From: Cantharellus purpuraceus
Lineage: Eukaryota > Basidiomycota > Agaricomycetes > Cantharellales > Hydnaceae
Length of the DNA stretch: 64,000 nt
NCBI GenBank assembly: GCA_025174535.1
Contig: JALBUN010000003.1
Coordinates: 1,758,501 to 1,822,500 of the forward strand
Direction: 5' to 3'
Position 1 is the first letter of the stretch, and every line of letters starts with the position of its first letter. A model generated the notes under the pieces. It saw nothing but the letters and a program-made list of their open reading frames with translations. It did no database searches and was not told where the DNA came from. Of the stretch, positions 1 to 54,350 are shown one piece after another. Made by a program: the position numbers and the translations under genes.

Positions 1-137
1 TTATGAAAATTTCACACATCCAAAATCTTTTAAGATATCCAAATTGTAACTCCCTGGCTTTATGTATCATTGAAATTCTGATGTATATCTCATATACATC
101 AGAATATTGTATACTGACATGATTCCAAACAAGTGTC
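1..137 (+). mobile_element. M element (MITE-like), right end
   Basis: This stretch repeats 10386-10522 almost base for base and ends in the same CAAGTGTC terminus. The left part lies outside the window. It sits inside a P LTR, which resumes at 138. Confidence 0.75.
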
Positions 138-230
138 TATCAAGAAAAGCAGCACTCCTTAATGGAACGCTGTATATACTAATATTAATATATGCTACTC
201 TATAGTAAGTAAATACCTAGGGTACTTACA
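138..230 (-). mobile_element. P-element LTR, partial
   Basis: It matches 12187-12279, including the remains of the CAGCATTCC...GGAATGCTG hairpin and the GGTACTTACA terminus at 221-230. The rest of the LTR was lost at the M insertion. Confidence 0.7.
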
Positions 231-309
231 GATAGGCTATAAGTGCTGGAAAACATCAAGGACTTTTGGATGGTTCATGACTCTGAGACTAAGACAAGCA
301 TCCATTTGC

Positions 310-675
310 TCACTTCCCTTTTGGCAGGTGAGGCATTATAAGGAGGTAGTGAAATTTTTTGGTATCAGGCCTGAGATTGATTTCAACTTTTGCATCATAA
401 TTGCCAAGTCTACCATCAAGACCAAATGCATCTTTATGTGCCAAAACTGTATCTTGGAGAGCCTTCTGATTGGTGTCATTGAGCTCTGGTGAGAAGTCAA
501 TTTCATCCAACAGTTGGTTTTCAGGAACATCCTCAGGGGGAATTTCCTGAGCCTTAGGTCCTCCTTGTACCACCTCTCCATCTGATTCAAGAGAGATAAC
601 AGTAGGTATCATACCAGACTCAAAGTTCTGTTGAGCAAGAGCTTTTATAAGTCTGGTGTGAGAGAAACAAGTCTC
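310..675 (-). pseudogene. Gypsy pol fragment (linker before reverse transcriptase)
   Basis: The minus strand encodes a stretch typical of the segment between protease and reverse transcriptase in fungal gypsy Pol, with the motif AHKDAFGLDGRLGNYDAKVE. The frame breaks near 330, where the conserved 'PYHASPAKRE'-type sequence should follow, and the rest is missing. The protein differs from the G, B and C elements, so this is a further gypsy family. It lies between a P LTR end and a G LTR start. The family call is firm; the exact lineage is not. Confidence 0.6.
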
Positions 676-865
676 TGTCAGGGCTCATACAGTTTCTATT
701 TTTAGTACCTTTCTTATCACCCCTATCAGCACAGCCTGTTAGGGTGCACTCTCCTATCTCTCCCCTATTGTTCCCCTATCTTGGTTCCCCTATTCCTTGC
801 ATCATCTAGTATAAAGATCTTGCCTGGTGCAGCATGGTTTCCTCAGCTTGATCTCTGAGGATATC
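676..865 (+). mobile_element. G-element 5' LTR, truncated
   Basis: It begins TGTCAGGG and matches the G LTR at 59495-59859, including the TATAAA box (near 810) and the 'ctctgaggatatc' segment. It stops abruptly at 865, where an S LTR minisatellite takes over. Confidence 0.75.
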
Positions 866-1142
866 ATGACTCATACCATGACTCCTTCCATGACTCATAC
901 CATGACTCCTTCCATGACTCATACCATGACTCCTTCCATGACTCCTTCCATGACTCATACCATGACTCCTTCCATGACTCATACCATGACTCCTTCCATG
1001 ACTCATACCATGACTCATACCATGACTCCTTCTATGACTCATACCATGACTCCTTCCATGACTCATACCATGACTCCTTCCATGACTCATACCATGACTC
1101 CTGCTCTGAGTCACACTATGACTCCATCCATGACTCATGCCA
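866..1142 (+). repeat. 12-bp minisatellite of Gcn4/AP-1-type sites
   Basis: Tandem 12-bp units alternate between ATGACTCATACC and ATGACTCCTTCC. I count eleven perfect ATGACTCAT sites (for example 866, 890, 914, 950, 1130). The array ends about 110 bp upstream of the TATA box of the S LTR. Other S copies carry shorter versions (15420-15500, 62545-62665). Confidence 0.9.
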
Positions 1143-1948
1143 TGAGTCAGAGCAAATCCAAGCAGCTCATTGGCTAGGAAACTTCCACCCCCTTCTCACA
1201 TATTCCACTAGCTTCCAGTAGTATTAGTCAGCTCCTGTAAATACAATATAAAAGGAGCCCACTCTGCCTCTGAATAAATAACCATTTTCTACCCCATCAT
1301 TTGCACATCAGTGTGACTAGAGTGACATACAGTGTCATCCTCTATATCTCAGTAACTGTTGATTGTCCAGTTCAAGGGTCGCTTACAGTTGTGTAACTGT
1401 ATTCGATTGCACTCAAACTAGTGATTGTCCTGCTTTGGGTGTGAGTGTAGTATCCTCGTATGACTACAAATCTACAGGGTGAGATTGTCTGTTGATAGTC
1501 CTGCCATTAGTGCTCTTTGATTAAGTTACTAGTGTGTACTGCCTTTGCAGAGCATTAGGATCTTGAACTTGTGTGAAGCAGTTGCTAGACTACTTCACAC
1601 ATCGCTGTTACCCGCTTCAGAGTGCCACTGGTTGGACAGTTGGATTCATCCACCTACTTCCTCTAGCCTCTAAGTGCATTCCCCTCTTTTCAGAATATCT
1701 GGACCCCTAAGCATCCGTGAACTCTAGACTCTGGAAGTCTTATTCATTCCCTACTGCTAAGAAATGTATTACCTTCCTGTGTATCGTCTGCATTGACTAT
1801 TACAACAGATTGTAACCAAAGTACAAATGTTAAATCGTTTCTGGAGTTGTGCTGCAGTAGGATTTGATATTCTTCTCAGCTGTTCATTCACAGAATTGTG
1901 GTGATGTAGAGTTTGCCCTAACACCATAATTTTGCAGGTTCCAAAACA
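866..1948 (+). mobile_element. S LTR, 5' truncated
   Basis: Shared with at least six other copies in the window. The sense strand is taken as + because TATAAAAGG (1247-1255) lies downstream of the minisatellite and an AATAAA follows. The right end is the intact GGTTCCAAAACA at 1948. The usual left end TGTATGGG is missing. No coding capacity is visible. It replaces the end of the G LTR and the start of G gag. Confidence 0.75.
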
Positions 1949-2719
1949 TCCTGTATGCCCTCTCTTTCATGACAGCAGGTTCCGCTGAAGTATGGGCCCA
2001 CAACAAGACCCAAGCAGTCATTGATGGGACTTCATTGCTCTCCACTCTTGAAGAGTTCATTAGACAAGTGGAGAATGCCTTTGGAGACCCTGATCGCTCT
2101 CAAATGGCATGAACAAGGTTACATGATCTCAAGATGACAGCTGGGACATCAGCAGATAAATACACAACACGGTTTGAGACACTGGCAGGAAGAACAGGGT
2201 TTAATGATGCAGCACTCAAAGATGCCTACACATGAGGGCTCCCTGCAATGATTCTTGAAAAGATCTAGGCACAGCCAGTACTCCCATTAGGTCTCAAGGC
2301 CTGGAAGGAAGCAGCCCATCAAATTGACTGCAACTACCATCACCTCATAGAAGTGAAATGGGCACAGGCTCCCCACACCTCCTCTTGCTCTACTCCATGT
2401 CAAGCTCCCAACTCCTGCCATCTCTGCACCCACCACTCCTGCACCATTCAGTGGTGCTATACCCATGGACATTGACTCCAGCCATTGTTGTATTGAAACT
2501 TAATGTGCTATAATTGTGGCAAGCATGGCCATATCTCCCCAGCATACACTGAACCACGCAGAGAACATATTCGAGCTGATCTGACAAAAGCAGCCATTGA
2601 CAGTATGGTCTCTGAATCAGTTGCAGCTGCAATGGACGCCAAAGAAACAGCACAGAAGGCATCCACTCCAGCACAAGAGGAAAAGCAGGGTTTTCAGGCC
2701 AGTCAGCAGTGAAGAGCAT
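1949..2719 (+). pseudogene. G-element Gag, broken
   Basis: Gag of a chromovirus, the structural protein of the virus-like particle. The 5' part is missing. Visible are the retrotransposon gag domain (motif FGDPDRS near 2085, LKAWKEAAHQIDCN near 2296) and a CCHC zinc knuckle (CYNCGKHGHISPAC type, near 2505) whose last Cys is replaced by Tyr here. At least four in-frame stops and frameshifts interrupt it, for example TGA at about 2112 in place of an Arg codon. The better copy is 58718-59234. Confidence 0.8.
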
Positions 2720-5700
2720 GCCCTGCTTGACAAATCAGTTTTCAGTTCTTGAATCATGTACAATAGGGCTCACAAGCAATATGCTACACCCCCCCCTGTG
2801 ATCAGACTGAAACCAAAACAGCCATGCCTAAAACTTCCTCTCAACTCCTAACTGAACACGATGACTCTCCCCGCATTTATGTTTGATCTGCAGACATCCA
2901 TCAATGTACAAGAATTCCTCTGAAAAGCCACTCTGTAGACACTGGCTACCCTCTAGCAGTGGACATGCTTCTTGACAGTGGGGCTACGGGGATGTTCATT
3001 GATGTAGAATACATCAAGGCAGAATTCAAACATGTCCCCTGCAACGTGCCATACTTGTTTATAACATTGATGGGACCCCCAATGAAGCCAGTTCAATCAA
3101 GGAAGAAGTTGACCTCATCTGCACATATGGAACCCATATGGAATGAGCCACATTCTCTGTTACAAGCTTGGGAAGCCTTGGTATCATCATTGGTCACACT
3201 TGGCTCGTAAAACACAATCCAGAGGTGAACTGGTGCACAGGAGAGATAAAGATGACTCATTGCCCTGATTCATGTGGAGAAGTACCAGAAAACAGAGAGC
3301 CCTTAACTGGAACCACTCCATTGAATGGCAAGAACCCACACAGGCAACCCTTACTTGAGGAGGGAGACTGAACCTTTGTCATCTTTGTGGAAGAAGACTT
3401 GGAAAAGATCTGTGCAGGCTCAGCAGTCTCACAACAGCTTGCACAGAAGGCCGTAGAATCTGCTTCTGTCAAACTCCTTGAAGATATTGTCCCAAAGGCA
3501 TATTGGGGATTTAAGGATGTTTTCTCAAAGGAGTCATTTGATCAGCTTCCACCTCGGAAACCATGGGACCATGCCATTGAACTCTGGGAGCCCAACCTTT
3601 CAGCACAAGTATCTATCCTATGTCCCCAAATGAGCAGAAGGAGTTAGATGCCTTCCTTGAAGAGAACCTGCGGAATCACCATGTATGCCCTTCCAAGTCA
3701 CTGATGGCATCCCCTGTTTTCTTCATGAAGAAGAAGGATGGCAACCTTCGGTTTGCAGGACTACTGTAAACTGAATGACATCACAATTAAGAATGCCTAT
3801 CCTCTACCCCTGGTACCTGATATCATGAACAAAATTGCTGCCACCAATGCCAAGTACTTCACCAAGCTTGACATCCAATGGGGATATAACAATGTGCACA
3901 TTAAAGAGGGTGATGAGTGGAAGGCAGCCTTTTGGACCAACCGTGGCTTATATGAACCCCTAGTCATGTTCTTTGGTCTCACAAACAGCCCAGCAACTTT
4001 CCAGACTATAATGAATGACATTTTCAAGGAGCTCATTGATGATGGTGTTATGGTGGTGTTCATGGATGACATTCTCATCTTCACTGAATCCCTAGAACAA
4101 CACCACAGGATTGTGCAATCCATACTTGAAATCCTTCAGGCCAACCACTTGTACCTCAAACCAGAGAAATGCCTCTTCATGCAACAGAAGGTAGATTATC
4201 TTGGACTTATTCTCTCACAAGGGCAGGTCGCTATGGACCCAGTCAAGGTAGCTGGAGTTTGAGACTGGCCTACACCCTGCAATGTCACCGAAGTCAAATC
4301 CTTCCTGGGCTTCATCAACTTCTACTGTCATTTTATTGAGGACTTCTCACACATTGCAAAACCCCTGAACCTATTAACAAAGGCAAATTCACAATGGTCC
4401 TGGATGTCTAATGGCCCAGAACAAGAAGCCTTTGAGGAACTCAAGAGACTTGTCACATCAACTCCAATCCTTGTCCTCCCTGATCAAACCAAGTGATTCC
4501 AACTTGAGACAGATGCTTCAGCATATGCAACAGGTGCCGTTCTATCTCAGCTCTGTGATGATGGGAAATAGAGACCCATAGGATTTGTATCCAAGAGTCT
4601 TTCAGATGCAGAGTGCAACTATGCCATCCATGATAAGGAATTGCTCTCTGTCATACGTGGATTATAGGAATGGTGCCACATCCTGGAAGGAACCAAACAC
4701 AAGATCGAGATCCTCAATGACCATCAAAACCTCATGTATTTCCATACAGCTCAAAACCTTAATTGCTGACAAGCTTGCTGGTCACTCTACCTCTCTCACT
4801 TTGATTTTGAACTGATCCATCATCCTGGATGCCATTCAGCTAAACCTGATGCCCTCTCACAACATGTAGACCATAAATGGGGGGAGGAAGATAATCAAAA
4901 TCAGATTCTCCTTGGCCCTGAGCTGTTTCACATTAATGCAACATCCACCTATTCAGGACCAGGAGCTCAAATGGTCACAGGAGAAGGGGACATATTTCTG
5001 GATCATGTGCGGAACTGTAACAACAGAGATGAAAAGGTTGTGAAAGCTCTCAAGGAACTTGGTTCTTCTGGAAACCTATGAGGACAGGAATAGACCAAGG
5101 CGAATGGACTTGTTCTCTATCATGGCAAGGTGTATGTTCCCCTTGACTCAAAACTGTGCCACAATATTGTAAGGGCACACCATGATACTCGCATCACAGG
5201 TCACCCTGGTCACTGGAGGACAACAGAGCTTGTATCATGCAGCTACTGGTGGCCTGGAATTGGACAATATATTGCAAGGTACATAAAGGGCTGTGATCTT
5301 TGCAATCAGACCAAAACCTTCCCAGCTGCTCCTATGGGTAAACTCCTGCCTAATTGTGTCCCAGACCGAAGATGGTAAGTGATATCTGTTGACTTAATTG
5401 TGGAGTTACCCACTAGCCATGGCTGCAATGCACTTCTTGTTGTTGTGGACTGACTCTCCAAATGAGTACATGTGATCCCTACCACCTCTGACATTAATTC
5501 CATAGGGATTGCACGACTCTTCCATGACTATGTGTGGAAACACCATGGCCTCCCTGAAGAAGTCATCAGTGACCATGGCACCCAATTTGTTTCCCAATTT
5601 ATGCGTGAGCTCAATAAGCTCTTGGGAATCAAGGTTGCAGCGTCTACAGTATATCACCCACAATCTGATGGTCAGATGAAACAGGTCAACTAAGAGATTG

Positions 5701-5876
5701 AACAGTATCTGAGGCTCTTTGTCAATCAGTGCCAAGATGACTGGGCCGAGTGGGTTGCTTTTGCTGAATTTACATACAACAACTGCATCCACTCTTCCAC
5801 ACAATCAACCCCCTTTATGCTTGACACAGGTCAACACCCAAGGCTAGGGTTAGAGCCAGTCCAAGAGACATGGCTT
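2720..5876 (+). pseudogene. G-element Pol (protease, RT, RNase H, integrase), broken
   Basis: Polyprotein of a Ty3/Gypsy chromovirus. Domains in order: aspartic protease with LLDSGATGMF (near 2970), reverse transcriptase with YFTKLDIQWGYNNVHI (near 3860) and the catalytic VVFMDDILIF (near 4050), RNase H with FQLETDASAYATG (near 4500), integrase zinc finger (H..H..CDLC near 5190-5300) and DDE core (SDHGTQF near 5570). More than ten stops and frameshifts are present, many of them TGA or TAG where the other copy has CGA or CAG. The chromodomain end is missing because the sequence is fused at about 5877 to a B LTR tail. It cannot be functional. Confidence 0.9.
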
Positions 5877-5879
5877 GAA

Positions 5880-5945
5880 GCACTCCAACTCCAACCAACA
5901 ACTCTGACCCAATCTCTGATCCCCAATTGGACCTAGTGTGTAACA
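5880..5945 (+). mobile_element. B LTR, 3' tail only
   Basis: It matches the last 66 bases of the B LTR at 26878-26943 and ends CTAGTGTGTAACA. It is fused to G pol on the left and to a partial A LTR on the right. Confidence 0.7.
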
Positions 5946-6634
5946 CTACAGCTCTGAAGGTAAATCAACCCTGAGTCACATGAGGACTTCAGTCAGCATC
6001 CACAACAAATACTCCTTATTGTCTTAGTGATCCGTCTCCATATGGTATCCTGTTCCAAGGGTATTCAGTCCCTTTGCCTGACACGATATAACCTGAGTCA
6101 GATTGAAGTGGGATGATAGGTTGGCAATGGCAACTGAAACTCTACCTCATGTTTGACTCTTCTATCCATGTTATGATATAGAGGTGAAATGCCAAGGAAT
6201 GTATATGGTTCAATGGAATCATGAAAGAATATGGGATCGCCAATGGCATAAGAGAGACATGGTGGGGATCTTGGATGTTGAAAGAGTTTTGGAAGTATTT
6301 TGACAGGTGGAGGTGACTTAACATGCCCATGGAGCTTGGCATATTTTTGATAGTCCTCCTTGTTCAGAGACCAGTGTGACATATTATTAGAAGAGATGTT
6401 GGAGAGAGGAATAGAATTGGAAGCCATGTGAATGAGGATGAAAGGATTGGTGTGAATAGAAGGCTGATAATGATTGGTGGCAATGAAACACAAGTGACAA
6501 TTGATGGCTAGAATTTGAGACTGAGGTGGAGAGGGAGTTGTGGCGCTATTTAAAAGTTTGATATGAAAAGACGCTGGCAGAGTTGGACTGTCAGAGTGGT
6601 TTGATATACATCCTCGATGCATCCTGGCTCATCA
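5946..6634 (-). mobile_element. A LTR, U3 part only
   Basis: The reverse complement matches 18040-18716. The LTR start TGATGAGCCAGG lies at 6634 reading leftwards. The TATA-containing half is missing. The right flank is the integrase of the P element. Confidence 0.75.
6098..6427 (-). pseudogene. Small LTR-borne ORF (A type), truncated by a stop
   Basis: Copy of the small ORF described at 18239-18673. It begins MASNSIPLSN at 6427 and keeps the PYTF core, but ends early because the CGA codon after 'PTSI' has become TGA. The copy at 38855-39184 has the same stop, so the change is either shared by descent or a recurrent CpG mutation. Function unknown. Confidence 0.6.
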
Positions 6635-7295
6635 ACAAGCAAATCATTCCATTGGCCAAATTCTTTATACCGTTGTATGAAGTGATCAGAAGGATTGGGC
6701 ACACAAGTGTCCAATCGTGGAGTTCACACTAAACTCCAACATAAGCTCAACAATGGGGTTTACTCCGTTTGAGCTTAACCACAGGTATATGCCTAGAATA
6801 GGCATGCCTGTTAACAATGACACCAAGTTCAAGGGTGTCAATGATTTGCACAGCAGGCTCAAATGAACCTGCTAGCGGTGCATGATGCGATTATAGAAAG
6901 TTGTGACATTCAGACGTTTCATGCCAATAAGAAACATCAGGCAGGCCCAGCCTTCCAGAGAGGTGACAAAGTCTACCTCTCAATGAAACACTTGACTCTA
7001 CCTAAAGGTAGAACCAGCAAACTAGTGCCCAGGTACATCGGGCCCTATAAAATAATCAAAGCCCATAATAAAGCTTCAACGGTGACACTGGAACTGCCAC
7101 CAGAACAGCAAAATCATTTTACGACTTTGGGAATAATGATGAGCAGGAGTGGCTCATCAATGGATAAGTGATAAAGAACTTGAATTTCAAGTTCTATGGA
7201 TGTTGGGAGACGTCACCTGGGAACCTTACATGTTGTGTAAGGACCTAGAAGCTCTAGATGATTATTTAGAACTTCAAGGGGTGACTCAAGCATGA
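6635..7295 (+). pseudogene. P-element Pol C-terminus (integrase end and chromodomain)
   Basis: End of a chromovirus integrase. Visible in order: the end of the integrase core (DQKDWAHKCPIVEF near 6684, TPFELNHRYMPRIG near 6760), the GPY/F-type module (GDKVYLSMKHLTLP near 6963, PRYIGPYKI near 7030) and a chromodomain (DEQEWLIN near 7136, VTWEPYMLCKDLEALDDYL near 7215). At least three frameshifts and a TGA for Arg (6678) break it. The 5' part of the element was removed by the A LTR at 6634. Chromodomains in this position target integration to histone-marked chromatin in related elements. The underlying DNA is unusually rich in perfect inverted repeats. Confidence 0.8.
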
Positions 7296-7712
7296 GAACT
7301 ACCTCATAGACAGTAGTTCTCAGAGAGACAGAGCCCCAAAGATCTAATGGGGCTCAAGGGGGAGAAGTGGAGCTACCAAGAATAAAGGTAGCTCCTAGCA
7401 GGATGCAACAAAGAGCTACCATCAATGATGGTAGCTCAACGAAGGGAGGAGGAACTACATTGATTAAATGGTAGTTCCTAGATAAGGATAGAGCTACCAT
7501 AACAATAGGCAGCTTGATGGTAGAAAAAACTGCTCCCATAGGGAGCAGTTCACTGTCATGCTACTCATAGTAGCACAAAAAGGGCAAGCAATAAATAATC
7601 ATGTTACACCCATGTGACATAGTCACTGGAAAAATTCTCAATAAAGAATTTTTGAGCTCAGCCATAAAAGGCTAGTGGTGTTTCTTCAAACCACCACAAC
7701 CCCCCCATCAAA
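7296..7712 (+). repeat. Cluster of short perfect hairpins between pol and extra ORF
   Basis: Non-coding DNA made almost wholly of consecutive inverted repeats. Arms and spans include 7331-7355 (7 bp), 7369-7395 (9 bp), 7413-7437 (11 bp, 3-nt loop), 7451-7478 (8 bp), 7528-7550 (10 bp, 3-nt loop), 7559-7575 (7 bp) and 7630-7653 (9 bp). Several early arms share the core GAGCTACC/GGTAGCTC; later ones are unrelated in sequence. No ORF is seen. Possible roles are transcript structure, a terminator or processing region, or a leader for the next ORF. Confidence 0.8.
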
Positions 7713-9658
7713 ATGTCATCTCTCAGAAGGGAGATGATGGATGCTCAAGACAAGCATCCAATGGAAGTTGAACAAACTTCCACAGCAGCAGCACCGGTAA
7801 TGAGTGCTGCAGATATGACCAGGGGTCATCAAGATGAGATGACCTGGAAAATTGGCAGATGGCATGGTGGCGCTGCCATTTATTACCCTCACAGGTGCAA
7901 CAAGTGTGACACATATGTGTCGCACTTAATCGAGGCCCAAAATGGGGGCCAACTATACCTTTCCACCGCTTCAGTGGAAAGAGAATTAAGAGTTGCATGG
8001 CTGCAACTTATATGCAATATTGAAGATGATGTCGCAACACCTTATTGTGAAGACTATGATAAAATGTACAAGGATAACTCAGACCTGTTTGTGCAGGTCC
8101 AAGAACTCAAAGGACTTCTCAAGAAATCTGAAGTAACTCATCTCAGAAACGAGTTAAAAACACCAAAGGAGACTGCTAATAGAGTACCTCCTACATTCAA
8201 GACCAAGCTCACAATGGTGCACTTGGCCCCAGTAGCATCACTATTGCATGCTATGGCAGGCAAATCATTGCCCGCCATTATGCCATCACAGCCTGTGGCT
8301 TTATCATCATGGGAAATGATCGATCTCACCAAAGAGGAGGATGATCACCCAAGCAAATTGCCTTGGATCAATCCTTGAGGGTTTGAGGGTCAAGATTGGG
8401 ATGACACTGACTCAATCTGGGAGGGATATGACCATGATCGTGGCCTCCTCCTGGCTGGCATCCCCAAGGGTGCTAAGCAACCGGGCAAACTCAAAGAGTT
8501 TTCCCTATCAGAAATTGAAGCTGAGATTGATCAGCTTCAAAAGGAATATATGGCTGGTGATGCCAGCTGTACATTAAAAGACCCAGCATTGAAGATGCTG
8601 GAGGAAGCCCAGTGTATGAATTATCACAAACGCTGGGATGATTTTGGGCATGCTCTCAAGCATGCCAATGTGGGGAAATCATTCCCCAAATGGGCACTGT
8701 AGTTCATGACTGCGGCTGACCCCCACAGAGCAGTCACTGGCCACCTGCTGTGACCTCTGGGCAAGTCCATCCCTATCAGGGCAGACTGGTTTGACATCTG
8801 CAATATGAACACTCCAGAGTTTGTATCGCTCCATAAAAAGGCATTGGCCACACTGTTTGCAGAACGGACTGTACCAATGTGCAGAGTCATCAAGAGAATG
8901 ACTCTACTGGCTTGCACTGATAACACGAGTCTTATTGTCACTCTACCGACCACACTGGTAGACACACTTGCCCTTATACAGGGGTGGCAAGTAAACCCTA
9001 ATGGAGTCCCCCCGGCCATCTGACAGGAGTTGGATGGTACTATGAACCTGTCCGATGTGGACGTCTGGATGTGGCTACAAAAGGCCACTCCCAAGAAGGG
9101 TTCTCCTGTGTTTAAGAAGAACCTCTGGACCATGTTCCAGAATCCTGGCCACTGGGGATTATTGACCAGTGGTCAAAAGTTCTCACCAGCTCTTGGTGAC
9201 ACCTTTCACACTTCAGTCACTGGAGCATATGATTGGGGGAATCACTCCCCCAAAGAACATACTGAATTGGAGCTTGTGCTCTGGTTTGGACAGGAGGCAT
9301 CACCCCCGATTGTGCTGCTATATTAGAGAAGCTTGCTAAATGCATTGCCTCCAGAGCAGTATTTAACCAGCCCTCCAGGGTTGGTAAGCAAAAGCAGCAG
9401 ACTCAGGGAGTCTCCCAAGCAGCTCATAAAGCTGCTAAATGCTCTCTTGCTGAGCATTTAGGTCATGATCAACTTAATTGTAAACTTGATTGGGATGCTG
9501 CAGTAGCAATTGCATCCTCCTCATCCATTCAAGTGGATGAGGATACCACAACCACATCAGGGACAACTGAGAGCCATCCCCCTCTGGAGCCATATGAACA
9601 AGATGACCATATGGACACCGACTCATCAGAACAGCTTCATAAGGAGCTGTATGATTAA
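7713..9658 (+). pseudogene. P-element extra ORF downstream of pol (unknown protein, ~645 aa)
   Basis: A single reading frame runs from ATG 7713 to TAA 9658, interrupted by in-frame stops at 8376 (TGA), 8701 (TAG), 8751 (TGA) and about 9021 (TGA), and by one frameshift near 9280. Each stop is one C-to-T change from CGA or CAG, so the ancestor was a protein of about 645 residues. Visible features: HRCNKCDTY near residue 55, a heptad-like Leu/Glu stretch near residues 120-145, a second Glu/Leu helix (EIEAEIDQLQKEY), and near the end CSLAEHLGHDQLNC, which has CCHC zinc-knuckle spacing except that the second Cys is Ala. It occupies the 'env' position, directly before the polypurine tract and LTR. 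I do not recognise the family; a Gag-like nucleic-acid-binding role is only an inference. Confidence 0.7.
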
Positions 9659-9687
9659 AAGGTACTGAATGGGATTGTGCCTCATTC

Positions 9688-9700
9688 AAAAAGGGGAGGG
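9688..9700 (+). promoter_or_regulatory. Polypurine tract of the P element
   Basis: A 13-base run of A and G (AAAAAGGGGAGGG) abuts the LTR start TGTAAGTACC at 9701. This is the expected site for priming plus-strand DNA and fixes the orientation of the element. Confidence 0.8.
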
Positions 9701-10539
9701 TGTAAGTACCCAAGGTACTTACTTATTATAGTATATAGCTAGATAGTTGTAATTAATGTATGCAGCATTCCATTAAGGAATGCTGTCTTATTGATATATG
9801 CGCCCATAGGGTGCATATGTATAGTTATTATGTAAGCCAGTGGACCCAAGTACACATGTGGGTCCACATATAGTAGACAGAACTTAGTAACTACCACACT
9901 GTACAGGACATTGCCCAACCAATACACTTGGTTGAGTTCTGTGCAACAGTGTGAACTAAGACGCTTGTTCAGAAATACAACAAATACATATATACAACCT
10001 ATTTTCCTCAAATTTTACACAATACACTTCAATTCAAACTTATTTTCATATTTCAACATGATTCTCAAATTTTACACAATATACTAGATTAAAACATATT
10101 TTGATATTTTGGCATAATTCTTAAAAATAATTGTTTTTTCCCCATTTAGTGGTGGCAACTCTTGAGGGAACATCCAAATATCATTGATTCTTTCTTGTAC
10201 AATACTTGTAACATAATTTGAACTATCTTTAATCCCCACCTAGTATTTGTATATCTAAATATCCTATATAATACCAATTAAATTAATACATACATTCCCA
10301 TTATATCCATGTAAATGATTATGTTCATCTCAACCAAATATCTTATCTTTTAAAGTTTATTAAAATATAGAATATATGTTTATATTTATGAAAATTTCAC
10401 ACATCCAAAATCTTTTAAGATATCCAAATTGTAACTCCCTGGCTTTATGTATCATTGAAATTCTGATGTATATCTCATATACATCAGAATATTGTATACT
10501 GACATGATTCCAAACAAGTGTCTAAGACACCCATTAACA
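9701..10539 (+). mobile_element. P-element 3' LTR, split by an M insertion
   Basis: The LTR starts TGTAAGTACC and ends CCCATTAACA (10539). Without the M element it is about 273 bp, against 275 bp for the copy at 12005-12279. Its terminus is itself a perfect inverted repeat (9702-9722, 9-bp arms), and further hairpins follow at 9763-9785 and 9840-9867. Confidence 0.85.
9960..10522 (+). mobile_element. M element, MITE-like, with TAA target duplication
   Basis: 563-bp AT-rich element without coding capacity. The ends GACGCTTGTT and AACAAGTGTC form an inverted terminal repeat with one mismatch. TAA flanks it on both sides (9957-9959, 10523-10525). The uninterrupted site is present in the P LTR at 12005-12030, where 'gaactaagacaccc' reads through. 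A 3-bp TWA-type duplication is typical of PIF/Harbinger elements, but the family cannot be fixed without a transposase. Confidence 0.8.
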
Positions 10540-12004
10540 AATTCTCTCCATTGGGGGAATTTCATTTCCTCTGCTTAACCGATCATTCGGTTGGATCCCC
10601 TCACCCTGGGGAGATCCAGACTCTCTGGATTCAGACTCTTGTCAAGAATCTGCTCTTCAGTGACACAACTTGTGTTGCTCAGAGTTCTCTTGGAGCGATT
10701 TTAACATTGTTCCTAGCTCTGCTATTTGCTGCCCCATAGTAGTGGCAGCATGCCCTGCTTCAGCAGCCATCTTAGCTGCCTGAGCACTAGCTTCGCTAAT
10801 GCTCTTCATCTCATGTTGATTACACATGAGTTGTTCAGTCAATCTTGCTATTGACCTGTGGGTTTCACACCACTCTATACTGTGTGATTCCCTAGTAGAA
10901 GTATTGCTACTTCTACTTGGATGACTGTCTCCTCCTTTCTTCTCTAATCAAAGAACCACTCAATGAAGGGTTCTTGTTTGACAGATGATCTATTATCTGA
11001 TTGTCTGTGCAGTCTTGTGATTGCAGTGACTCTCTTCTAGAGTCTTCCTTATGAGAAGTCCCTGCAACTTCTCTAGGGTCTAGCTCCTCTTCCTGGGAGC
11101 TTTGTTAAGTGCTGAAAACTCGGAGTTTAAAGGAGTAGCTGGTGTTCGGATACTAGTGAGGAAGGGGATGGGACTTTACTGTTCCAGTTCAACTGGAGAC
11201 AGATGGGGACAAATAACTATTGAGTCGGATCGAGTGGACTTGGCTTCAACTTATGTGTTGCACCCCCTCGAATTGTCGGTCCAATATTTTGGAGTTCGGA
11301 GTACGGAGTTGGATCAAAGATCCAGAGTTTGACTTGTCAAGAAGATACTTGTCAAGAAGCTAGTAACCAAGAAGCTGATGGGGAATCTTAGTCGATATAC
11401 GAACTACTGTAACATACAAGAAGTAGCCCGTATAAGTATGTAGAGAATTGAATGGTAAAACTAAAAGCGATAAGACAATAAGACTAATATGGAATACAAC
11501 ATGGAAAGGAGTTCAGAGTTCAGACTCATGTCCGAACTAATACTAAACAATTAGAAAGTATAACGGTTGTTGTAACCCATAAGAAGACTACTAATGAGGA
11601 GAACAATGGCGGGGTCTGGAGTTGACGGAGGTGGAGTTGATGGAGGTGGAGTTGATGGAGGTGGAGTTGATGGAGGTGGAGATGGAATCCGGAGATCAGA
11701 ACTTGGTGTTACAGGATGTAACAAGCTTCTGCTGCTGGCTATGCACTGCTGTTCATCATTTATGATGTCCTGTGTGCTTCCAGCATGACTCACTCTACTA
11801 TAGATCATCATTATGATGACTCCTTTCTTTCTTCTATCTTTGTAGGCTAACTAAGTTAGTCTACTAGTTGCTCACTTATATAAGCAACTGGGGGGGTTGG
11901 TATACATCTGTACACCAGCAACAGCTGGTTTTCTAGTATTGACTAGAAAACTTCAATAATGAGGAAGAATCAATTGATTCTTCCTTTGGAAGTTCAAAAA
12001 AGTG
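10540..12004 (-). pseudogene. P-element leader and Gag N-terminus, inverted copy
   Basis: Reading leftwards from the LTR at 12005, a leader is followed by an ORF starting near 11800 (MIYSRVSHAGSTQDIIND). It is interrupted by a solo C LTR (11103-11723) and continues with frameshifts to a helical Ala/Glu/Gln-rich segment (MTEQLMCNQHEMKSISEA at 10842). The order LTR, leader, first ORF suggests the N-terminal part of Gag. The sequence again carries dense perfect hairpins (10577-10592, 10614-10630, 10894-10917, 11053-11073, 11929-11950, and a 22-bp perfect palindrome at 11963-11984). The 3' part stops at 10540 against the P LTR of the neighbouring copy. Confidence 0.65.
11103..11723 (-). mobile_element. 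Solo C LTR with AGCTT target duplication
   Basis: 621-bp LTR ending TGTTAAG and TGTAACA, flanked by AGCTT on both sides (11098-11102, 11724-11728). The intact target reads through in the P copy near 44310. It contains a 15-bp tandem repeat (GGTGGAGTTGATGGA, about four units, 11625-11690). The same LTR begins the C element at 37244. Confidence 0.9.
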
Positions 12005-12279
12005 TTAATGGGTGTCTTAGTTCACACCATTGCACAGAACTCAACCAAGTATATTGTTGGGCAATGTGTTGTACAGTGTGGTAGTTAACTAAGTTCTCCC
12101 TACTACATGTGGACCCACACATGTACTTGGGTCCACTGGCTTACACAATAACTATACATATGCACCCATAGGGTGCATATATCTACCAAGAAGACAGCAT
12201 TCCTTAATGGAATGCTGCATACATTAATTATGACTATATAACTATATACTATAGTAAGTAAGTACCCTGGGTACTTACA
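12005..12279 (-). mobile_element. P-element 5' LTR, inverted copy
   Basis: Complete 275-bp LTR, TGTTAATGGG...GGTACTTACA on this strand. It is homologous to 9701-10539 without the M element and provides the empty site for it. Hairpins at the terminus (12257-12277), 12152-12175 and 12203-12225 are kept. Confidence 0.85.
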
Positions 12280-17954: not shown

Positions 17955-18238
17955 GTATATTTGAACTGCCATACTCACTCCTACCAATGCCACGATCCAC
18001 TGCCAATTCCGAACATGCACGAACCATTGAGGTGCCTGCTGACGAGCCAGGACGCATCGAGGACGCATATCGAACCACTCTGACAGTCCAACTCCGCCAG
18101 CGTCTTTTCGTATCAACTTTTAAATAGCGCTGCAACTCCCTATCCACCTCAGTCTCTAATTTGAGCCATCGATCGTGTTTCATCGCCATCGATCATTATC
18201 AGCCTTCTATTCACACCGATCCTTTCATCATCATTCAC

Positions 18239-18673
18239 ATGGCTTCCCATTCTATTCCCCTCTCCAACATCACTTCTAATAATATGTCACACTGGTCTCT
18301 GGACACAGAGGACTATCAAAAATACGCCGAGCTCCACGGGCATGTTAAGCCACCTCCACGTGTCAAAATACTTCCAAAACTCTTTCAACGTACAAGATCC
18401 CCACCATGTCTCTCTTATGCCATTGGCGATCCCATATTCTTTCACAATTCCATTGAACCATATACATTCCTCGACATTTCACCTCTATATCGTAACACGG
18501 ATAGAAGAGTCGAACGTGAGGTAGAATTTCAGTCGCCATCGCTGACCTATCCTCCCACTTCAATCCGACTCAGGTTACATCGTGTCAGGCAAAGGGACCG
18601 AATACTCTTGGAACGGGATACCATATGGAGACGGATCACTAAGACAATAAGGAGTATTTGTTGTGGATGCTGA
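18239..18673 (+). CDS. Small ORF in the A LTR (144 aa, unknown function)
   Basis: Complete ORF starting MASHSIPLSN at 18239, the first ATG kept in all three A copies. The central part is conserved: SLDTEDYQKYAELHG, KPPPRVKILPKLFQ, then Y-x-I-x-D-P-[IL]-F-x6-P-Y-T-F near residues 60-77. The C-terminus is Arg-rich and ends with several Cys (SICCGC). The G element carries a diverged homologue (54351-54830) in sense orientation between pol and its polypurine tract. Being in U3, this frame would lie near the 3' end of a genomic transcript, as with U3-encoded accessory genes of some retroviruses. No signal peptide, membrane segment or known domain is evident. Function unknown; conservation in two families argues that it is a real gene. 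Confidence 0.6.
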   Translation: MASHSIPLSNITSNNMSHWSLDTEDYQKYAELHGHVKPPPRVKILPKLFQRTRSPPCLSYAIGDPIFFHNSIEPYTFLDISPLYRNTDRRVEREVEFQSPSLTYPPTSIRLRLHRVRQRDRILLERDTIWRRITKTIRSICCGC

Positions 18674-19011
18674 CTGAAGTCCTCATGTGACTCAGGGTCA
18701 ATTAACCTTCGGAGCCGTAGGGAAGATGGTATTGGTGGACGTCTCTATTGTTCTTTTATATGACTCACCCCTGTTTCATCTTTTAATTCATTCATACACG
18801 ACTTACTCATCCTTGTTCTATTTTTGGTTCTTTTATTACTCATCACCCCCTATTCTTACAAAGATTACCCCTATCTGTCATTTCATTTCTCCATGATTTC
18901 CCCCTTTAGTAGTTCAACTTCACACGCTTCGTCAGCTGGCTTGATCAGCATTTCTTGCATCATATCGCATCATTTGCTCCTCATATTGTGTCATTGTGCC
19001 CTGGGGATTTG

Positions 19012-19020
19012 TATATAAAA
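19012..19020 (+). promoter_or_regulatory. TATA box of the A LTR
   Basis: TATATAAAAG-type box in 'tttgtatataaaagggcg', kept in the inverted copy near 38450. It marks the U3/R side of the LTR and gives its direction of transcription. Confidence 0.7.
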
Positions 19021-20542
19021 GGGCGCTAGTTTTCGCCTTTGGAATAAATAAACAAGTTTTCAGCCAACGCTCTAAAGTCAAAGTCCAAGCTCTAAGTCTA
19101 TGCTCTACACTCTACATCACAATCCATCATCTCTACACTGAGGTAAAACACCTTGGTTCAATGATCAGATTTCCCTCCGCCACCGAGAGGTTGCTTCTCC
19201 TGAAACCAGCTTTCGCGTACCTCCCAACTGGGCTCCGCATTGTCATCCAGTCACAGAGCACGATCAGCCATCGGGACCGACCTTTAGCTCCCATCCTCAT
19301 CCAACCACAGAGCACTATCCCACTTCCCTGTTACTTACCCCTCGCCCTGATTGATCTTTGGAGTGCTGAACAACTGCATTACACACCGTCTGTTTGCTAG
19401 GACCGTTGCGCGCAGGCTTATAGGATCTATTCCTTAAGCGAGCCGACACCGCTCCCAGCATCGACACCATCCCCGAGGTCATCAAAGGACTGATGGACCA
19501 CAGAGAGGCCATCAATGAAGAAGATGACACCCCGCCCTCTCCAAATCTGGCGCAAGCCATCTCCCTGCTTGCCAGCAGCATCCGTAACCCACAAGCTCCT
19601 AAGTCCCAGACCAAGGTCCGAGAACCTGACCCCTTCGATGACTCTGATCTGCAAAAACTCCAGCCATTCTTAGTGCAATGCCGGTTGAATTTCCGCAACT
19701 GCCCCAATGCATTCACATCCGATTGGGCAAAGGTCACCTTCGCCATGTCCTATTTCAAGGGCACCGCACTGGACTACTTTGAGCCAGCGCTCATGGATGA
19801 CTCCGATGACCCAATATGGTCAGAGGACTACTCCGACTTCATCTCCGAACTTCGGACCAATTTTGGTCCTTACAACCCCGAGGCCGACACCGAGAATGAA
19901 CTTGATCGACTTCAGATGAAGGAAAATCACAAAATCGCAAAATACATTGTGAGTTTCCAGCAGCTAGCCCTGAAAGTCCAATGGGGCGACGCCGCACTCC
20001 GATGCCAATTTTATGTTGGACTCCCATCCCACATCAAGGACAAGATATCATGCATCAGTAAGCCAGATACTTTGGTTAACCTCCACAAGCTCGCCCAATC
20101 CATCGATGCCCATTATTGGGAACGTCAATCCAAGGTCTCCCACAAAAATTTGGCTAACAACAAATCAGACAAATCATTGGACAAGACCCCAAAGTCCAAC
20201 AAGGGGTCCGATAAGAGGACCACCACCAACTCAGGCCAGAAGTCAAACACTGGTAATGCTGCCACTTCCAGTTCTGGTCAGAACAATTCCAGCACCAGCA
20301 ATAACTCCGGAGCTCACAAGAGTACTCCGGACCTCTCCACCAAGCTGGGGAAGGATGGAAAACTTACCCAGCAGGAACGCCAGCACCGCATGGACAACAA
20401 CCTCTGTCTGTTCTGCAGAAAGCCTGGCCACCAAGCCAAGGATTGCAACAAGGCAACCTCATCCGCAGCAAAGGCAAAAGGCCGTGCCGCCAACGCCATG
20501 ACGGACAAGTCTGACACAAAAGCAACAGACCCAAAAAAGTAG

Positions 20543-23500
20543 TAAGCAGTCCTATAGCCTCCGTACGGGCTGAGGGCTGCGTTGGTACTCCCTGTATGAC
20601 AAATGAGGTCCACCTGAACGCATCTGCTCTTTCCCACTCTAACTCCCTTACTCTCCTCATCTACTCCAACTCCATTCCCGATACCGCTATTCAAGCGTTA
20701 ATTGACTCCAGTTCTACTCACTGTTTCCTCAATTCCTCTTTTTCTGATTTACATAAACTCCATACATACGCCATAACTCTGATATCGCTCCGATTGTTAT
20801 TTAACGAGCTATAGATCTGTCTATCTGTTTTTCTGTCGGAGAAATCCAGAACCTTACATTCTATGTTACTCCGCTTGACTCCAGCTGTTCTGTGGTTCTC
20901 GGACATAACTGGCTCACCCGCTACAATCCGTTGATTGACTGGGCACTGGGCCATATCACATTCCGTTCCCCAGTACAGGCTGTGTCATCCCCGACATCAC
21001 CAGCAACTTTAGGTGCGAAATTATCTTCCGCCTCTGCTGACTCTGCTCCAATAGATACTCTGTCCACCCCGCCGTTTATATCACTGGTGGATGCTATGGT
21101 CTTTGCCAGACTAAGCAAACTGGATGGTTCCCACACATTCCAGGTCCACCTCTCCGATCTGATATTCCTCGCTGCTTGTTCCACCCAATCAACTCCACCA
21201 GATCTATCTATGGTCCCTAAGGAGTATCATGAGTTCGCTGATGTGTTCAGCAAGTCTAAAGCCAACTCCCTAGCAGAACACCGACCATATGATCTCAAGA
21301 TTGAACTGGATGACAACTCCACCCCTCCGCTTGGCCCTATCTACTTGCTATCCCAAAAAGAGCTACTGGCTCTCTGAACATTCATAGATGAGAACTTGGC
21401 TATGGGCTTCATCCGCCCATCCCTATCTCCTCATGGAGCTCCAGTCCTATTTGTATGCAAAAAGGACGGATCACTCTGTCTATGCGTCAACTTCCGTGGA
21501 CTCAACAAGATCACCAAGAAAGACCGATACCCAATACCCCACACCACGGACCTACTTGAAAGTCCTCGAAAGGCTAAGATCTATTCCAAAATAGATCTCC
21601 GACATGCTTACCATCTAGTCCGCATCTGAGAAGGCAACAAATGGAAAACGACCTTCCACACACGATATGGATCTTTCGAGTGGTGCATCATGCCCTTTGG
21701 ACTAACCAATGCTCTGGCCACCTTCCAGAGGTTCATGAATGATACCTTTGCCAACCTCCTCGATGTGACTGTCCTCGTTTACTTAGACGACATTCTGGTA
21801 TATTTGGACAACAAAGAAGAACATCGGACACATGTCCGAGAGGTGCTCTGACATCTCTGAAAACATGGCCTCTTCACCTGTGCTGACAAATGTGAATTCC
21901 ACTCCGACTCGGTCAAATACCTAGGCTATATCCTCTCCCTGGCAGGGTTGACAATGTCCAACAACAAAATCAAAGCCATACAGGAATGGCCAGAACCCCA
22001 GAAAGTCAAGGACATACAGTCCTTCCTAGGGTTCGCCAACTTCTACCGCCGCTTCATTCACGGCTACTCTGATATCACCGTTCCACTCACCCGACTCACT
22101 AGGAAGTAGTGACTATGCCACTGTAAACCCCCACAACTTTTGCCCTGTGTTTACTAACGAGCAGCTGGCATCGTCCCTACGAGCATCCACCCTCATGACT
22201 CCCACCCTCTGAGCTGTCACCATTATGGATATCGACCAACTCCGCTCCGACATCCGCTCGTCACTCTGATCTGATCCTGTTGCAGTTAAACACTTGGATG
22301 ACCCTTCCAATCCGAAATGGTCACTTGACCCCAAAGGACACCTCCGACACAACAACCAGATATACGTCCCTGATGCCAATGGTCTCCGACTCCGAGTTTT
22401 GCAGTATTACCATGATCACCTGATCTCGGGCCATTTCGGGCAAAATCACACACAAGGATTAATCTGACGAGACTATGTATGGCCAAAAATGCGAGAATAC
22501 ATTCAACACTACTGTAACTCCTGCACCATGTGTATGCGCTCAAAATTGCAAAGGCACAAACCCTACGGAACACTTAAGCAACTTCTGGTCGCGGAGCAAC
22601 CATGGAACTCCATCTCCATGGATTTCATAGAGAAGCTCCCCCTATTGCTCGGATATGATACCATACTTGTTATTGTCGACAGGTTCACCAAACAGTCACT
22701 ATTCATTCTGACACATGACACCATCACCTCCGCCTCGCTAGCTAAATTGTTTGTTCTCCACGTATTCTCTAAACACGGAGTCCCATCGCATGTCATGTCC
22801 AATTGGGGCTCGGAGTTCGTGTCCTCCTTCTTCCACACATTAGGAAAGGCTCTTGACATGAAGCTTCATTTCACCTCCGGATACCACCCTGAAGGAGACA
22901 GACAAACAGAATGAATGAAACAGTCCCTGGAACATACCTCTGAATCTATTGTAACTATCAACAAGACAACTGGGCTGACCTACTTCCAATAGCAGAGTTT
23001 GCCTACAACAACACTCCGAATGTGACTACTGGCATCTCTCCGTTCTTTGCTAATAAAGGCTACCATCCGAACATCTCCGTCCACCCTGAGAAAGAACTTG
23101 CCTCCACCAAAGCCCACCAATTTGTAACCGACCTTGATCAACTACACCAACATCTCCAAGAAACCATCTCCGATGCCCAGAAACAATATCAAGTCTCCAC
23201 CGACCACGCTGCATTCCAGCTCCAGACCTGCAAATCGGAGACAAAGTATTTGTTAAGGCCAAACACTTCTGGACCACCCGTCCATCGAAGAAACTCTCTG
23301 AGAAATACTTAGGTCCTTATGAGGTCATTGCTCGCACAGGCAGCAGGTCCTTCACCCTCCACCTCCTGGACCACTTCCGAGCAGTTCATCCGGTTTTCCA
23401 TATATCAATGCTTGAACCCACTACTACAAACGAGATCTCCGGTCGCACGCAACCTCCACCTCCCCCGATCATCATTGAAGGAGATAATGAATATGAGATC

Positions 23501-23695
23501 TCTGAGATCCTGGACTTGAAGATCAACCATTGATACAAGTGCAAGCTCCAGTACTTAGTCAAATGGACTGGATACGAAGGCACCGATGAAGAGTCCTCGT
23601 GGATCTCCACGTCCAAACTCGATCATGCATCCGAATCCGTCTCCAACTTTCACTCCACTTATCCAGACAAACCTGGCCCCCTTATGAATCTTTAA
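20543..23695 (+). pseudogene. B-element Pol, lacking RNase H and with stops
   Basis: Chromovirus polyprotein. In order: protease remnant with IDSSSTHCFLNSSF (near 20700; active-site Gly is Ser) and VLGHNWLTRYNPLIDW (20892); reverse transcriptase with [18 protein letters not shown] (near 21490), [14 protein letters not shown] and [11 protein letters not shown] (near 21780); an abrupt joint at about 22110 where the ~0.5-kb RNase H region present in the C element is missing; integrase zinc finger (H..H..CTMC near 22400-22530) and core, in which the second catalytic Asp is Asn (SNWGSEF near 22800); then a chromodomain (YEISEILD, LVKWTGYEG, 23490-23640). Several TGA stops replace CGA. Not functional. 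Confidence 0.9.
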
Positions 23696-25259
23696 GTTCA
23701 ATTGCTAATGCTAATTCTATTATTTTGCATCATCATTTTATTACAAGTCACAAGGGAAATTACAAGCCTGCCCAAAAAGCTCCGAAGGAATCACTCCGAC
23801 TCATTTCTCTCTGCTCTGAAATTTATAATCATTTTCATTTTTATTTTATACATCGCGTTTCCTTTTTCCCTTCCCCTTATCTACCTCAGGCTCCATCTCC
23901 AACGCCGTCTCTGACTCATCATCACTCTCTACATCTGACACCCAATCTTTCTCATCCCCCATGTCCGAATCCTCGTCCAAAGGGGCCATGAACTTCCACA
24001 ACCGATGTAACTTGGCTGTCCGATGACCCTCCAGAACCTCCTTCCATTTCATCATCTTCACCAAGTCCACTAGCAACCCCTCCATCCACCAGAGGTGCTC
24101 CGACTGCAGGTTAACCAGCCGGATAAGCTGGCCCACGGTACTATTTGGCGCAGAGACGTGCCCCGTACCTGCACCGGTTGTTGCTCCTTCCGATCCGACA
24201 CCGCTACCCCCCGCTGCCACAGCACCTGTCTCCATCTGCCACTTTTTGGTCGGACAACCTTCTGATTCTTTCTCTGCCCCTCCTTGTACCACTAGTCAGG
24301 GCTTGACGCTCCGACTCTGGGGATTGAACTTTCCATCGATCCTACACCCTCCTTTCTGACCCTGACAACAATCGCAGGACTGAAGGCGGCGAGTTGGGCC
24401 AGTAGGCCACATGCACTCCATGCCTGCATCACAACACAAGTCACATGTTACGCCAGGCCCGCCAAATGGCTCCATTGGAGCCAGAGCCTTGGGTGGTCCA
24501 CCCCTTCTCGCTGCAGCCTCCAAATGTTCCCTCTCCTCCTCCTTGTCCTGCTGTTCCGCTGCTGCCTTCTCCATCTCACGCTTGTGAAGCTGGATCGCCG
24601 ACCTAGCGACACACAGCTCCTTCTTACGGGTCGCCAAAACGCAACTCTCCACCTTACACCATATGACCCTCCAATCTGCCTCCCGCTTCTCTGTATCAGC
24701 ACTCAGGTATGCCTTCAATGAAAAGACTGCGACGTCGAGGTTTTTCTTGGTGGTTGTGGCGTAGAGCTCTGCCCTTTTGTGAGCCTCAACTGCAGCTACC
24801 CAAGCCATCTCCTTGTAACAATTTGAAGTCAGATCCGGCTCTGCATCCGTCCCGACATCCACACCCACCTCGGGTTCTGCATTTGCATCGAGCTCCATAT
24901 TGGCATCAGGATCCACCTCCACCTCCGCCCTCTCTGCCTCCATCGCTTCATCTTCCTCAGCCACACCCAACTCAAACAATGGTCGTACCCACGGACGTAA
25001 CAGCGAGTCCTCCACAGTAACAGTTTTCAGACGAGTTGTCTCCATGCATGTAATGGAAATAATGGCGACTTCAGGGGTCCCTGTTCGTATTGGCACACTT
25101 GGACTTCCTGGGTGGCTGGTTCCCCCTGCCCCGGTCACCTCCTCCTCTACCTCCATAGTGGCTTCTAGCTCCTGTGCCTGCTCCTCCACTTCCTTCAGTC
25201 TCGTGGCCTCCATCATGGCCACAAGTTCCTTGACCCTGCAGGCTCTCTCGGCCTTTGCC

Positions 25260-25712
25260 TCCTCCTCCTTCCGTCTCCGTTCCATCTCCACCGCCTCTTT
25301 CTGCCTCTGCTCCTCCTCCTTGCATCTCCGTTCTGCCTCCTCCTCCTCCTTGCGTCTCCATTCTGCCTCCTCCTCCTCCCTGCATCTCCATTCCGCCTCC
25401 TCCTCCTCCTTGCATCTCCGTTCCACCTCCTCCTCCTCCTTGCGTCCCTGTTCCGCCTCCTCCTCCTCCTCCTTGCATCTCCGTTCCACCTCCTCCTCCT
25501 CCTTGCATCTCCGTTCCACCTCCTCCTCCTCCTTGCATCTCCGTTCCGCCTCCTCCTCCTCCTTGCGTCTCCATTCCACCTCCTCCTCCTCCTTGCGTCT
25601 CCATTCCACCTCCTCCTCCTCCTTGTGTCTCTGTTCCACCTCCTCCTCCTCCTTCCGTCTCCGTTCCGCTTCCTCCTCCTCTTTCCATTTCCGCTCCTCT
25701 TCCTCTTCTTTC
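25260..25712 (-). repeat. Degenerate 27-bp tandem repeat encoding Glu/Arg-rich coiled coil
   Basis: About sixteen units of 24-30 bp encode RRCKEEEEAE-like blocks. Only about four or five units remain in the aORF copies at 35300-35480 and 59235-59405, so the array varies in length between elements. Every unit change is a multiple of three, which keeps the frame. Confidence 0.85.
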
Positions 25713-25716
25713 CGTC

Positions 25717-26225
25717 TGTTATGACTATATTCATTAACGCCCAGATCCCCGTCCGATCCCCTCAGATCCCCGTGCATATGAAATCTATACTCCATTTGGA
25801 AACCGCCTCCATTTTCCTGTCCGATTGTCACCGCCGATTCCACCCATCCGTCTCCGGTTCCGATTGATGCATCAGCATCACCATAGGAACCCGGACATCC
25901 ATCCCCATCGGACTCGGACATACTCATGTAAGGCCGTCGGCCTCGGAGACCCATCACCAGAGTAATTATTATTAGATTTCGAATATGTATTTAAGTTGCC
26001 AACTGGGGACTCCATTCCCCAGTTCGAATATCAAATCATGCCTAGCTCCTAAGTCCGATCCTAACTCTGTAAGTCGTACTCCATCTCCAAAATCTCGGAC
26101 ACCAGTATTAGTGAGGGCGCAGCACATAAGCTGAAGCCAAGTCCATTCCGACCCCCACGACGTGCTCCGACTCCGACCCAACCTCCCACCCAAACTCTGA
26201 CCCCAATCGGACCTAGTGCGTAACA
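25717..26225 (+). mobile_element. Solo B LTR with CCGTC target duplication, inserted in aORF
   Basis: 509-bp LTR, TGTTATGAC...GTAACA, with CCGTC on both sides (25712-25716, 26226-26230). It lies in the same orientation as the host element and splits the aORF after codon 21. Confidence 0.9.
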
Positions 26226-37841: not shown

Positions 37842-37914
37842 GTATATACAAACTAATACCCTCAATCGTCATGTCCCCCTGAAGCACCCAAACCTCCATC
37901 TGAGTACCACCCGC

Positions 37915-44270: not shown

Positions 44271-44581
44271 TATGACTTCTCTAGGATCTAGTTCCCCATC
44301 ATGGGAACTTCTACTGCTGGCTGTGCACCATCATTCATCATTTATGATGTCCTGCATGCTGCCAGCATGACTCATTCTACTTCAAGTCATCATTATGATG
44401 ACTCTTTTCCTTCTGATTATGTAGGCTAACTAAGTTAGTCTACTAGTTGCTCACTTATGTGAGTGGCTGGGATGGTTGGTATATGTCTGTACACCAACAG
44501 CAGCCAGTTCTCTAGCACTGGCTAGAAAACTTCAATAACAAGGAAGAATCTAATGATTCTTCCAGTGGAAGTTCAAAAAAG
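44271..44581 (-). pseudogene. P-element leader and Gag start, third copy
   Basis: Matches 11724-12004 plus the start of the first ORF (MSHAGSMQDIINDE at about 44375). It shows that the target of the solo C LTR (AGCTT) is uninterrupted here. Cut at 44270 by the M element. Confidence 0.65.
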
Positions 44582-44792
44582 TGTAAGGTGGTTGGTTTAC
44601 TTAGATCACACTAACACAGAACTCAACCAGGTTTATTGGGTAATGTGCTGTACAGTGTGCATGGGTCCACAGCTTATAACTATATATATGCACTCTATGG
44701 GTGCATATGTCTACCAAGATGACAGCATTCCCTAATGGAATGCTGTAGATATAAATAATGGTTATTCTACATAAGTACCTAGGATACTTACA
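44582..44792 (-). mobile_element. P-element LTR, diverged
   Basis: 211-bp LTR, TGTAAGGTGG...GATACTTACA, homologous to 12005-12279 with small deletions. The GCATTCC hairpin remains and the terminal hairpin is imperfect. Confidence 0.75.
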
Positions 44793-54339: not shown

Positions 54340-54350
54340 TCACCCCCCTC

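Follow-up and report, generated by a model that had tools for sequence, protein, structure and literature searches.

PMC3950689 describes folding of RNA virus genomes at genome scale and reports that structured transcripts evade innate sensing in vertebrate cells. For yeast Ty1 and Ty3, passages of PMC11381356 report stable structured regions covering up to 30% of the genomic RNA, determined by selective 2'-hydroxyl acylation analysed by primer extension (SHAPE). Here we analyse a 64,000-nt stretch of DNA from Cantharellus purpuraceus (contig JALBUN010000003.1, positions 1,758,501 to 1,822,500; hereafter the window), in which the region at 6635-9870 belongs, as judged from its domains and termini, to a high-copy Ty3/gypsy family of long terminal repeat (LTR) retrotransposons. 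Like Ty1 and Ty3, this would be an LTR retrotransposon whose RNA contains folded regions; it is saturated with hairpins, which no passage found in PMC11381356 describes for Ty1 and Ty3.

The family resembles Ty3/gypsy elements with a Tf2-1-like integrase C-terminus (chromovirus-like) in its reverse transcriptase (RT)/RNase H, Tf2-1-like SH3 domain, LTRs and gag-like frame. It differs from them in its hairpins and in an extra open reading frame (ORF) after pol, and its strong folding is not shared by two sister families of this genome. The element is thus of a known kind, but its hairpin saturation appears new, in that none of the open-licence papers listed in our searches seemed, by title and abstract, to deal with a hairpin-saturated retrotransposon.

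Hairpin excess, predicted folding and divergence of the stems

Counting by script the maximal perfect inverted repeats whose arms are 7 nt or longer and whose loops do not exceed 20 nt, we found 168 in the whole window. Of these, 45 start in 6635-9870, against a mean of 4.23 and a maximum of 9 in 60 dinucleotide shuffles. The excess increased with arm length, to 23 versus 1.45, 14 versus 0.30 and 7 versus 0.05 for arms of at least 8, 9 and 10 nt, respectively (40 shuffles each). A previous reading of the region from its letters alone (hereafter the sequence-only reading) had listed 21 hairpins by position, and each of the 21 proved to be a perfect inverted repeat with arms of 7 nt or more. The excess that it described is real, and stronger than its count of at least 28 indicated. 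As it also proposed, the adjacent inverted copy is hairpin-rich (6 versus 0.62 in shuffles at 10540-11097; 10 versus 0.87 at 11724-12279), and a further fragment absent from that reading, at 43630-44760, shares the excess (15 versus 2.9).

Five of seven other stretches of the window were at or near chance (52700-60700, 6 versus 11.9; 18033-23341, 5 versus 5.2; 23415-26225, 2 versus 1.9; 35304-43625, 14 versus 12.8; 45000-52700, 8 versus 8.0), and the count for 1-5945 (15 versus 9.0) did not exceed its shuffles, which reached 16. The remaining stretch, 27500-33600, had a modest excess (15 versus 6.3; shuffle maximum 11) and apparently lies outside the hairpin family. Repeat counts in the two sister Ty3/gypsy families were 9 (4,001 bases) and 3 (1,501 bases).

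Other copies of the family were hairpin-rich throughout, in gag, RT/RNase H, integrase, extra ORF, leader and LTR. All codon-preserving shuffles (200 or 300 per frame) stayed below the observed count in each of nine coding frames, namely those of RT/RNase H (13, 9 and 10 versus 1.2, 1.0 and 1.2), gag (9 versus 1.0; 7 versus 0.6), integrase (4 versus 0.45) and the extra ORF (8, 10 and 8 versus 1.9, 0.9 and 0.9), indicating that neither the protein nor codon usage forces the hairpins. Three hairpins at 7370-7515 do have a common core, GAGCTACC, as would be expected if a single hairpin had been amplified, and are an exception to the earlier statement, otherwise mostly correct, that each hairpin has its own sequence. 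Nevertheless, the 469 hairpins in 18 stretches comprise 326 distinct ones, direct repeats numbered just 54 versus 39.6 expected, and shuffling of either kind, the check suggested with the sequence-only reading, failed to reproduce the density. Chance, base composition, codon usage or amplification of one hairpin therefore have an almost negligible probability of explaining it.

The excess also depended on loop length, being 9-21-fold for loops of 0-11 nt, 7-fold for 12-14 nt, 3-fold for 15-17 nt and 1.0-1.8-fold beyond, in 7 of the 18 stretches. This is the profile of hairpins formed within one strand.

RNA phages keep both strands folded, avoiding duplexes, and we used MS2 and Qbeta as a reference for predicted folding. 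Measured against dinucleotide shuffles in segments of 120 nt, the mean folding-energy z of the family was -2.92 for the sense and -2.82 for the antisense strand (531 segments from 18 stretches in several copies). The same script gave -2.71/-2.37 for the element in the window, -2.59/-2.30 for MS2 and -2.51/-2.29 for Qbeta, so that the predicted genome-scale folding of the element is comparable to that of these single-stranded RNA phages on both strands. Its inverted-repeat excess (10.3-fold) was larger than those of MS2 (2.8) and Qbeta (4.5). Values for three RT copies were -1.57/-2.03, -2.44/-2.79 and -3.15/-2.70; five other stretches of the window lay between -0.65 and +0.29, and the sister families were near normal (-0.55/-0.61 and -0.23/-0.73).

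To compare divergence, we aligned 30 copies of the start of the extra ORF, a main group of 23 plus 7 diverged copies; 16 loci were left out, nearly all for short coverage, and one (L030) for its span. These and all other DNA-level tests use copies within this one genome. CpG-like columns (216/906) were masked because CpG decay shows as TG/CA variants and TGA stops. Arms were less diverged than outside positions in 21/21 comparisons, made for 7 diverged copies under 3 definitions of stems, and loops were more diverged in 20/21, with 0.060, 0.099 and 0.198 transversions per site in stems, outside and loops, respectively. The contrast was present at each codon position, approximately so since the copy that supplied the frame has an indel, and hairpins defined in the diverged copies gave the same order of divergence. 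In the non-coding LTR of copy L029, changed sites amounted to 2/76 in stems, 4/19 in loops and 39/102 outside, and in the window fragment 44765-44301 to 10/144, 5/32 and 34/226; the corresponding row for L030, most of whose slot is not LTR, had 45/114, 13/34 and 66/135. Diverged copies within the genome thus keep most of the pairing, which the sequence-only reading had set as a check for relatives.

Raw counts of compensatory changes were high, with 24/45 double changes being Watson-Crick between copies L012 and L029 and 60/74 over seven copies. We set them aside because a CG step in a palindrome that decays to TG or CA looks like compensation, and CpG decay accounts for most of the apparent compensatory changes in stems. 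After masking, 579 of 688 pair-by-copy cells were unchanged and 88 differed on a single side. In the other 21 both sides had changed, with a Watson-Crick pair in 17; pairs displaced by 1-5 columns gave around 1.5 of 6. The compensatory changes that the sequence-only reading proposed to look for are thus mostly decay in the raw data; the masked covariation supports selection, although not overwhelmingly.

The sequence-only reading also suggested template switching by the polymerase. If such switching, or a similar mutational process during replication of the element, rewrote one arm after the other, hairpins would be created and perfected neutrally, in coding and non-coding parts alike. This would account for the strand symmetry, for stems that are perfect and Watson-Crick, and for the absence of a G-U preference described below. 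However, arms are conserved next to diverged flanks in the non-coding LTR, arms change slowly and loops fast, and each masked double change is an isolated pair instead of part of a run. We also examined whether differences between copies fall on one arm only, in rows that are not independent. At three differences one-sided cases were rarer than chance (3/57, 12/106 and 1/15, versus 14.2, 26.5 and 3.8 expected), but with four differences they made up 6 of 14, versus 1.8 expected. Despite this one contrary class, LTR arm conservation and the arm-split counts disfavour neutral template switching as the sole cause, and we consider it improbable.

Strand symmetry and proposed avoidance of double-stranded RNA

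The hairpin structure is established statistically, and from it we infer a function. Selection, probably acting on RNA, has most likely shaped coding and non-coding sequence into a chain of short local hairpins, and the RNA genome would fold as tightly as that of an RNA phage. The complementary strand, be it an antisense transcript, a copy made by an RNA-dependent RNA polymerase (RdRP) or minus-strand complementary DNA (cDNA), would have to fold on itself too, giving the strand symmetry. Strands folded in this way would not anneal into long double-stranded RNA (dsRNA), which would place the element beyond the reach of dsRNA-based silencing by the host.

The first step, selection for a folded RNA genome, is well supported taken alone; avoidance of dsRNA and silencing would be the second. 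Together they form the explanation that we tentatively favour, short of calling it probable, because it covers the strand symmetry, the short loops, the spread over all parts of the element and the presence in the host genome of RdRP and Piwi genes, the two classes of silencing gene covered by our searches. It is possible, but doubtful, that the folding is a counter-defence written into the sequence across the whole element, in which sense and antisense collapse on themselves at RNA-phage strength, leaving Dicer no long dsRNA. The sequence-only reading had offered compaction, protection or hindrance of RNA silencing, and this is the class of explanation that we tentatively prefer.

Several observations weigh against this explanation. 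The requirement that stems be perfect in some copies favours conserved stems; in one comparison (L029, with stems present in 8 or more main copies) loops were not faster; and the masked double changes, all of them transitions, derive from only about four hairpins. G-U pairs were not preferred, since stems with one mismatch had GT in 41 cases, AC in 61 and others in 57 (59 sense sequences), or 20, 25 and 18 outside decayable CpG contexts. Likewise, GT was not in excess over AC in mismatches beside helix ends, and lineage-shared states were GT 5 versus AC 4 and GT 1 versus AC 6. The G-U share of predicted pairs was no higher on the sense than on the antisense strand, unlike in MS2 and Qbeta, which have slightly more G-U on the sense strand. 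Finally, the family is abundant and decayed, indicating that folding did not prevent its inactivation.

Selection on sense RNA alone should favour GT, so either both strands must pair, or the stems must be perfect and what we see is later decay. Watson-Crick stems without G-U preference may thus mean that pairing matters on both strands. Plain folding of the sense RNA is accordingly incomplete as an explanation.

The same observations bear on the closest rival to silencing avoidance, in which the RNA structure is selected for packaging and compaction, with stems serving as many Gag binding places in a compact genome and no role in silencing. It draws on the same evidence for selected structure (folding z, slow arms, codon shuffles and LTR), and RNA phages of comparable folding, a likeness by folding score alone, are packaged RNAs. 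Yet packaging concerns the sense RNA alone, so that G-U should be tolerated above A-C, which was not seen, and no common hairpin motif was found beyond the three hairpins with a shared core. We regard it as unlikely.

Strand symmetry without G-U preference would also be expected if the pairing were used in DNA, as hairpins in single-stranded minus-strand cDNA or as cruciforms in the integrated copy. But the excess was strongest for loops of 3-11 nt, which were favoured over those of 0-2 nt, unlike what is known of cruciform preference. In addition, A was enriched beside hairpins on the sense strand (41% and 44% versus 32%; 254 hairpins), a strand asymmetry that hints at the involvement of sense RNA; loops were not significantly more A-skewed than outside positions. 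A mobile repeat described below also lacked a hairpin preference at the few testable sites (1/7). Pairing in DNA is in our view quite improbable, and selection for a folded RNA genome together with silencing avoidance remains the explanation that we favour.

Element layout, copies and neighbouring repeats

Pfam searches with copy L012 identified RT/RNase H domains (PF17919 and PF17917) and, at the C-terminus of the integrase that follows RT, a Tf2-1-like SH3 domain (PF24626), all above cut-off. The gag-like frame scored 26.2 bits with the Ty3-type capsid PF19259, below its cut-off of 29.1. LTRs were matched at both copy ends, with TG...CA termini read from the sequence. What the sequence-only reading called an integrase/chromodomain frame is an integrase with a Tf2-1-like C-terminus; its chromodomain label is unconfirmed, as Pfam returned no such match for the L012 frame. 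Pieced together from ten-kilobase stretches surrounding copies, the family layout is LTR, leader, gag-like frame, RT/RNase H, integrase, spacer, extra ORF and LTR.

Table 1. Parts of the hairpin-rich family and copies of the 560-bp repeat in the window (positions in L041 refer to that copy)
Feature	Position	Strand	Remarks
Integrase C-terminal coding region	6642..7160	+	frame decayed, hairpin-rich; SH3 Tf2-1-like domain seen in copy L012
End of pol and non-coding spacer	7161..7712	+	densest hairpin cluster; includes GAGCTACC hairpins (7370-7515)
Extra ORF after pol	7713..9658	+	start codon 7713, stop 9656-9658; frame broken in window copy
3' LTR	9701..9962	+	starts TGTAAGTACC; four perfect hairpins
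Second, inverted copy: gag-proximal region	10540..11102	-	hairpin-rich
Inverted copy: leader downstream of 5' LTR	11726..12002	-	hairpin-rich
Inverted copy: 5' LTR	12003..12279	-	89.5% identical to 9701-9962
Diverged lineage of the family: LTR and leader fragment	44300..44760	-	hairpins mostly retained
Family LTR fragment	136..232	-	78-79% identical
Copies of 560-bp AT-rich repeat	9963-10525; 1-139; 43636-44271; L041 ~136-643		first copy interrupts 3' LTR

The copy at 6635-9870 is cut at 6634-6641 by another repeat, which recurs at 38703-39391 and 18033-18720. Its 3' LTR is interrupted by a small repeat, resumes at about 10523-10539 and ends, as read from the sequence, in ...TTAACA. An insert at 11103-11725 splits the inverted copy; it recurs at 37237-37841 and 52731-53110 and holds a short GGAGTTGATGGAGGT-like tandem repeat.

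The AT-rich 560-bp repeat has inverted ends (GACGCTTGTTCAGAA...TTCTGAACAAGCGTC), an internal 14-bp hairpin and at least 46 matches listed, most of 96-98% identity; by these features it looks like a young miniature inverted-repeat transposable element (MITE). It sits in a hairpin loop in copy L041, which had raised the suspicion that it inserts into hairpins. No general preference of this kind could be shown: of 22 sites, the comparison covered the 7 with an assumed 8-nt duplication, and there was a hairpin at one of the seven (L041).

In the 40.15-Mb genome (50 contigs), the LTR piece had at least 42 matches listed, the RT piece at least 150, the last 27 being other gypsy elements at 27-31% identity, the integrase piece at least 154 and the extra-ORF piece at least 158. 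For the last three pieces the best 150 candidates were scored, and many matches were fragments, in which TGA stops were frequent. Judged by integrase, the closest other families showed 38-43% identity. A protein search with RT gave 252 relatives, the best 120 of which show 58-80% identity over the aligned part; two viral-contig scans found no relatives of the family outside the genome. Copies are heavily changed from CG to TG/CA, with many TGA stops (for example, L033-L052), which suggests decay through CpG methylation; matches to DNA-methylase in the genome were weak.

The sequence-only reading was right to include the extra ORF in the element. It has 577 open codons in copy L077 (336-2069, minus strand), and the protein search gave 3 relatives of its product; relatives from metagenomes show 42-48% identity. 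It showed no known domain and no convincing relative in Pfam or among solved structures, and fold prediction (nine sequences) failed, with a mean predicted local distance difference test (pLDDT) score of 34.8, a helical middle being the sole part with some confidence. Judged from these comparisons, the extra ORF encodes a predicted conserved protein of an unfamiliar kind.

Implications of hairpin saturation

The family shares with RNA viruses that have ordered RNA structure at genome scale a pervasive local folding beyond that of shuffled sequences. It differs from them in being a fungal retroelement, in its perfect Watson-Crick stems and in that its structure is inferred from DNA alone. If our explanation is correct, folding of RNA at genome scale, a topic of discussion mainly in RNA viruses, can also arise by evolution in an integrated retroelement, where the DNA itself reveals it.

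The decay of CpG within palindromes imitates compensatory evolution, which calls for caution in reading such changes. As its copies were fossilised at different ages, the family allows structural constraint to be separated from coding constraint. It also offers a way to test whether a transposon can escape RNA silencing by folding alone.

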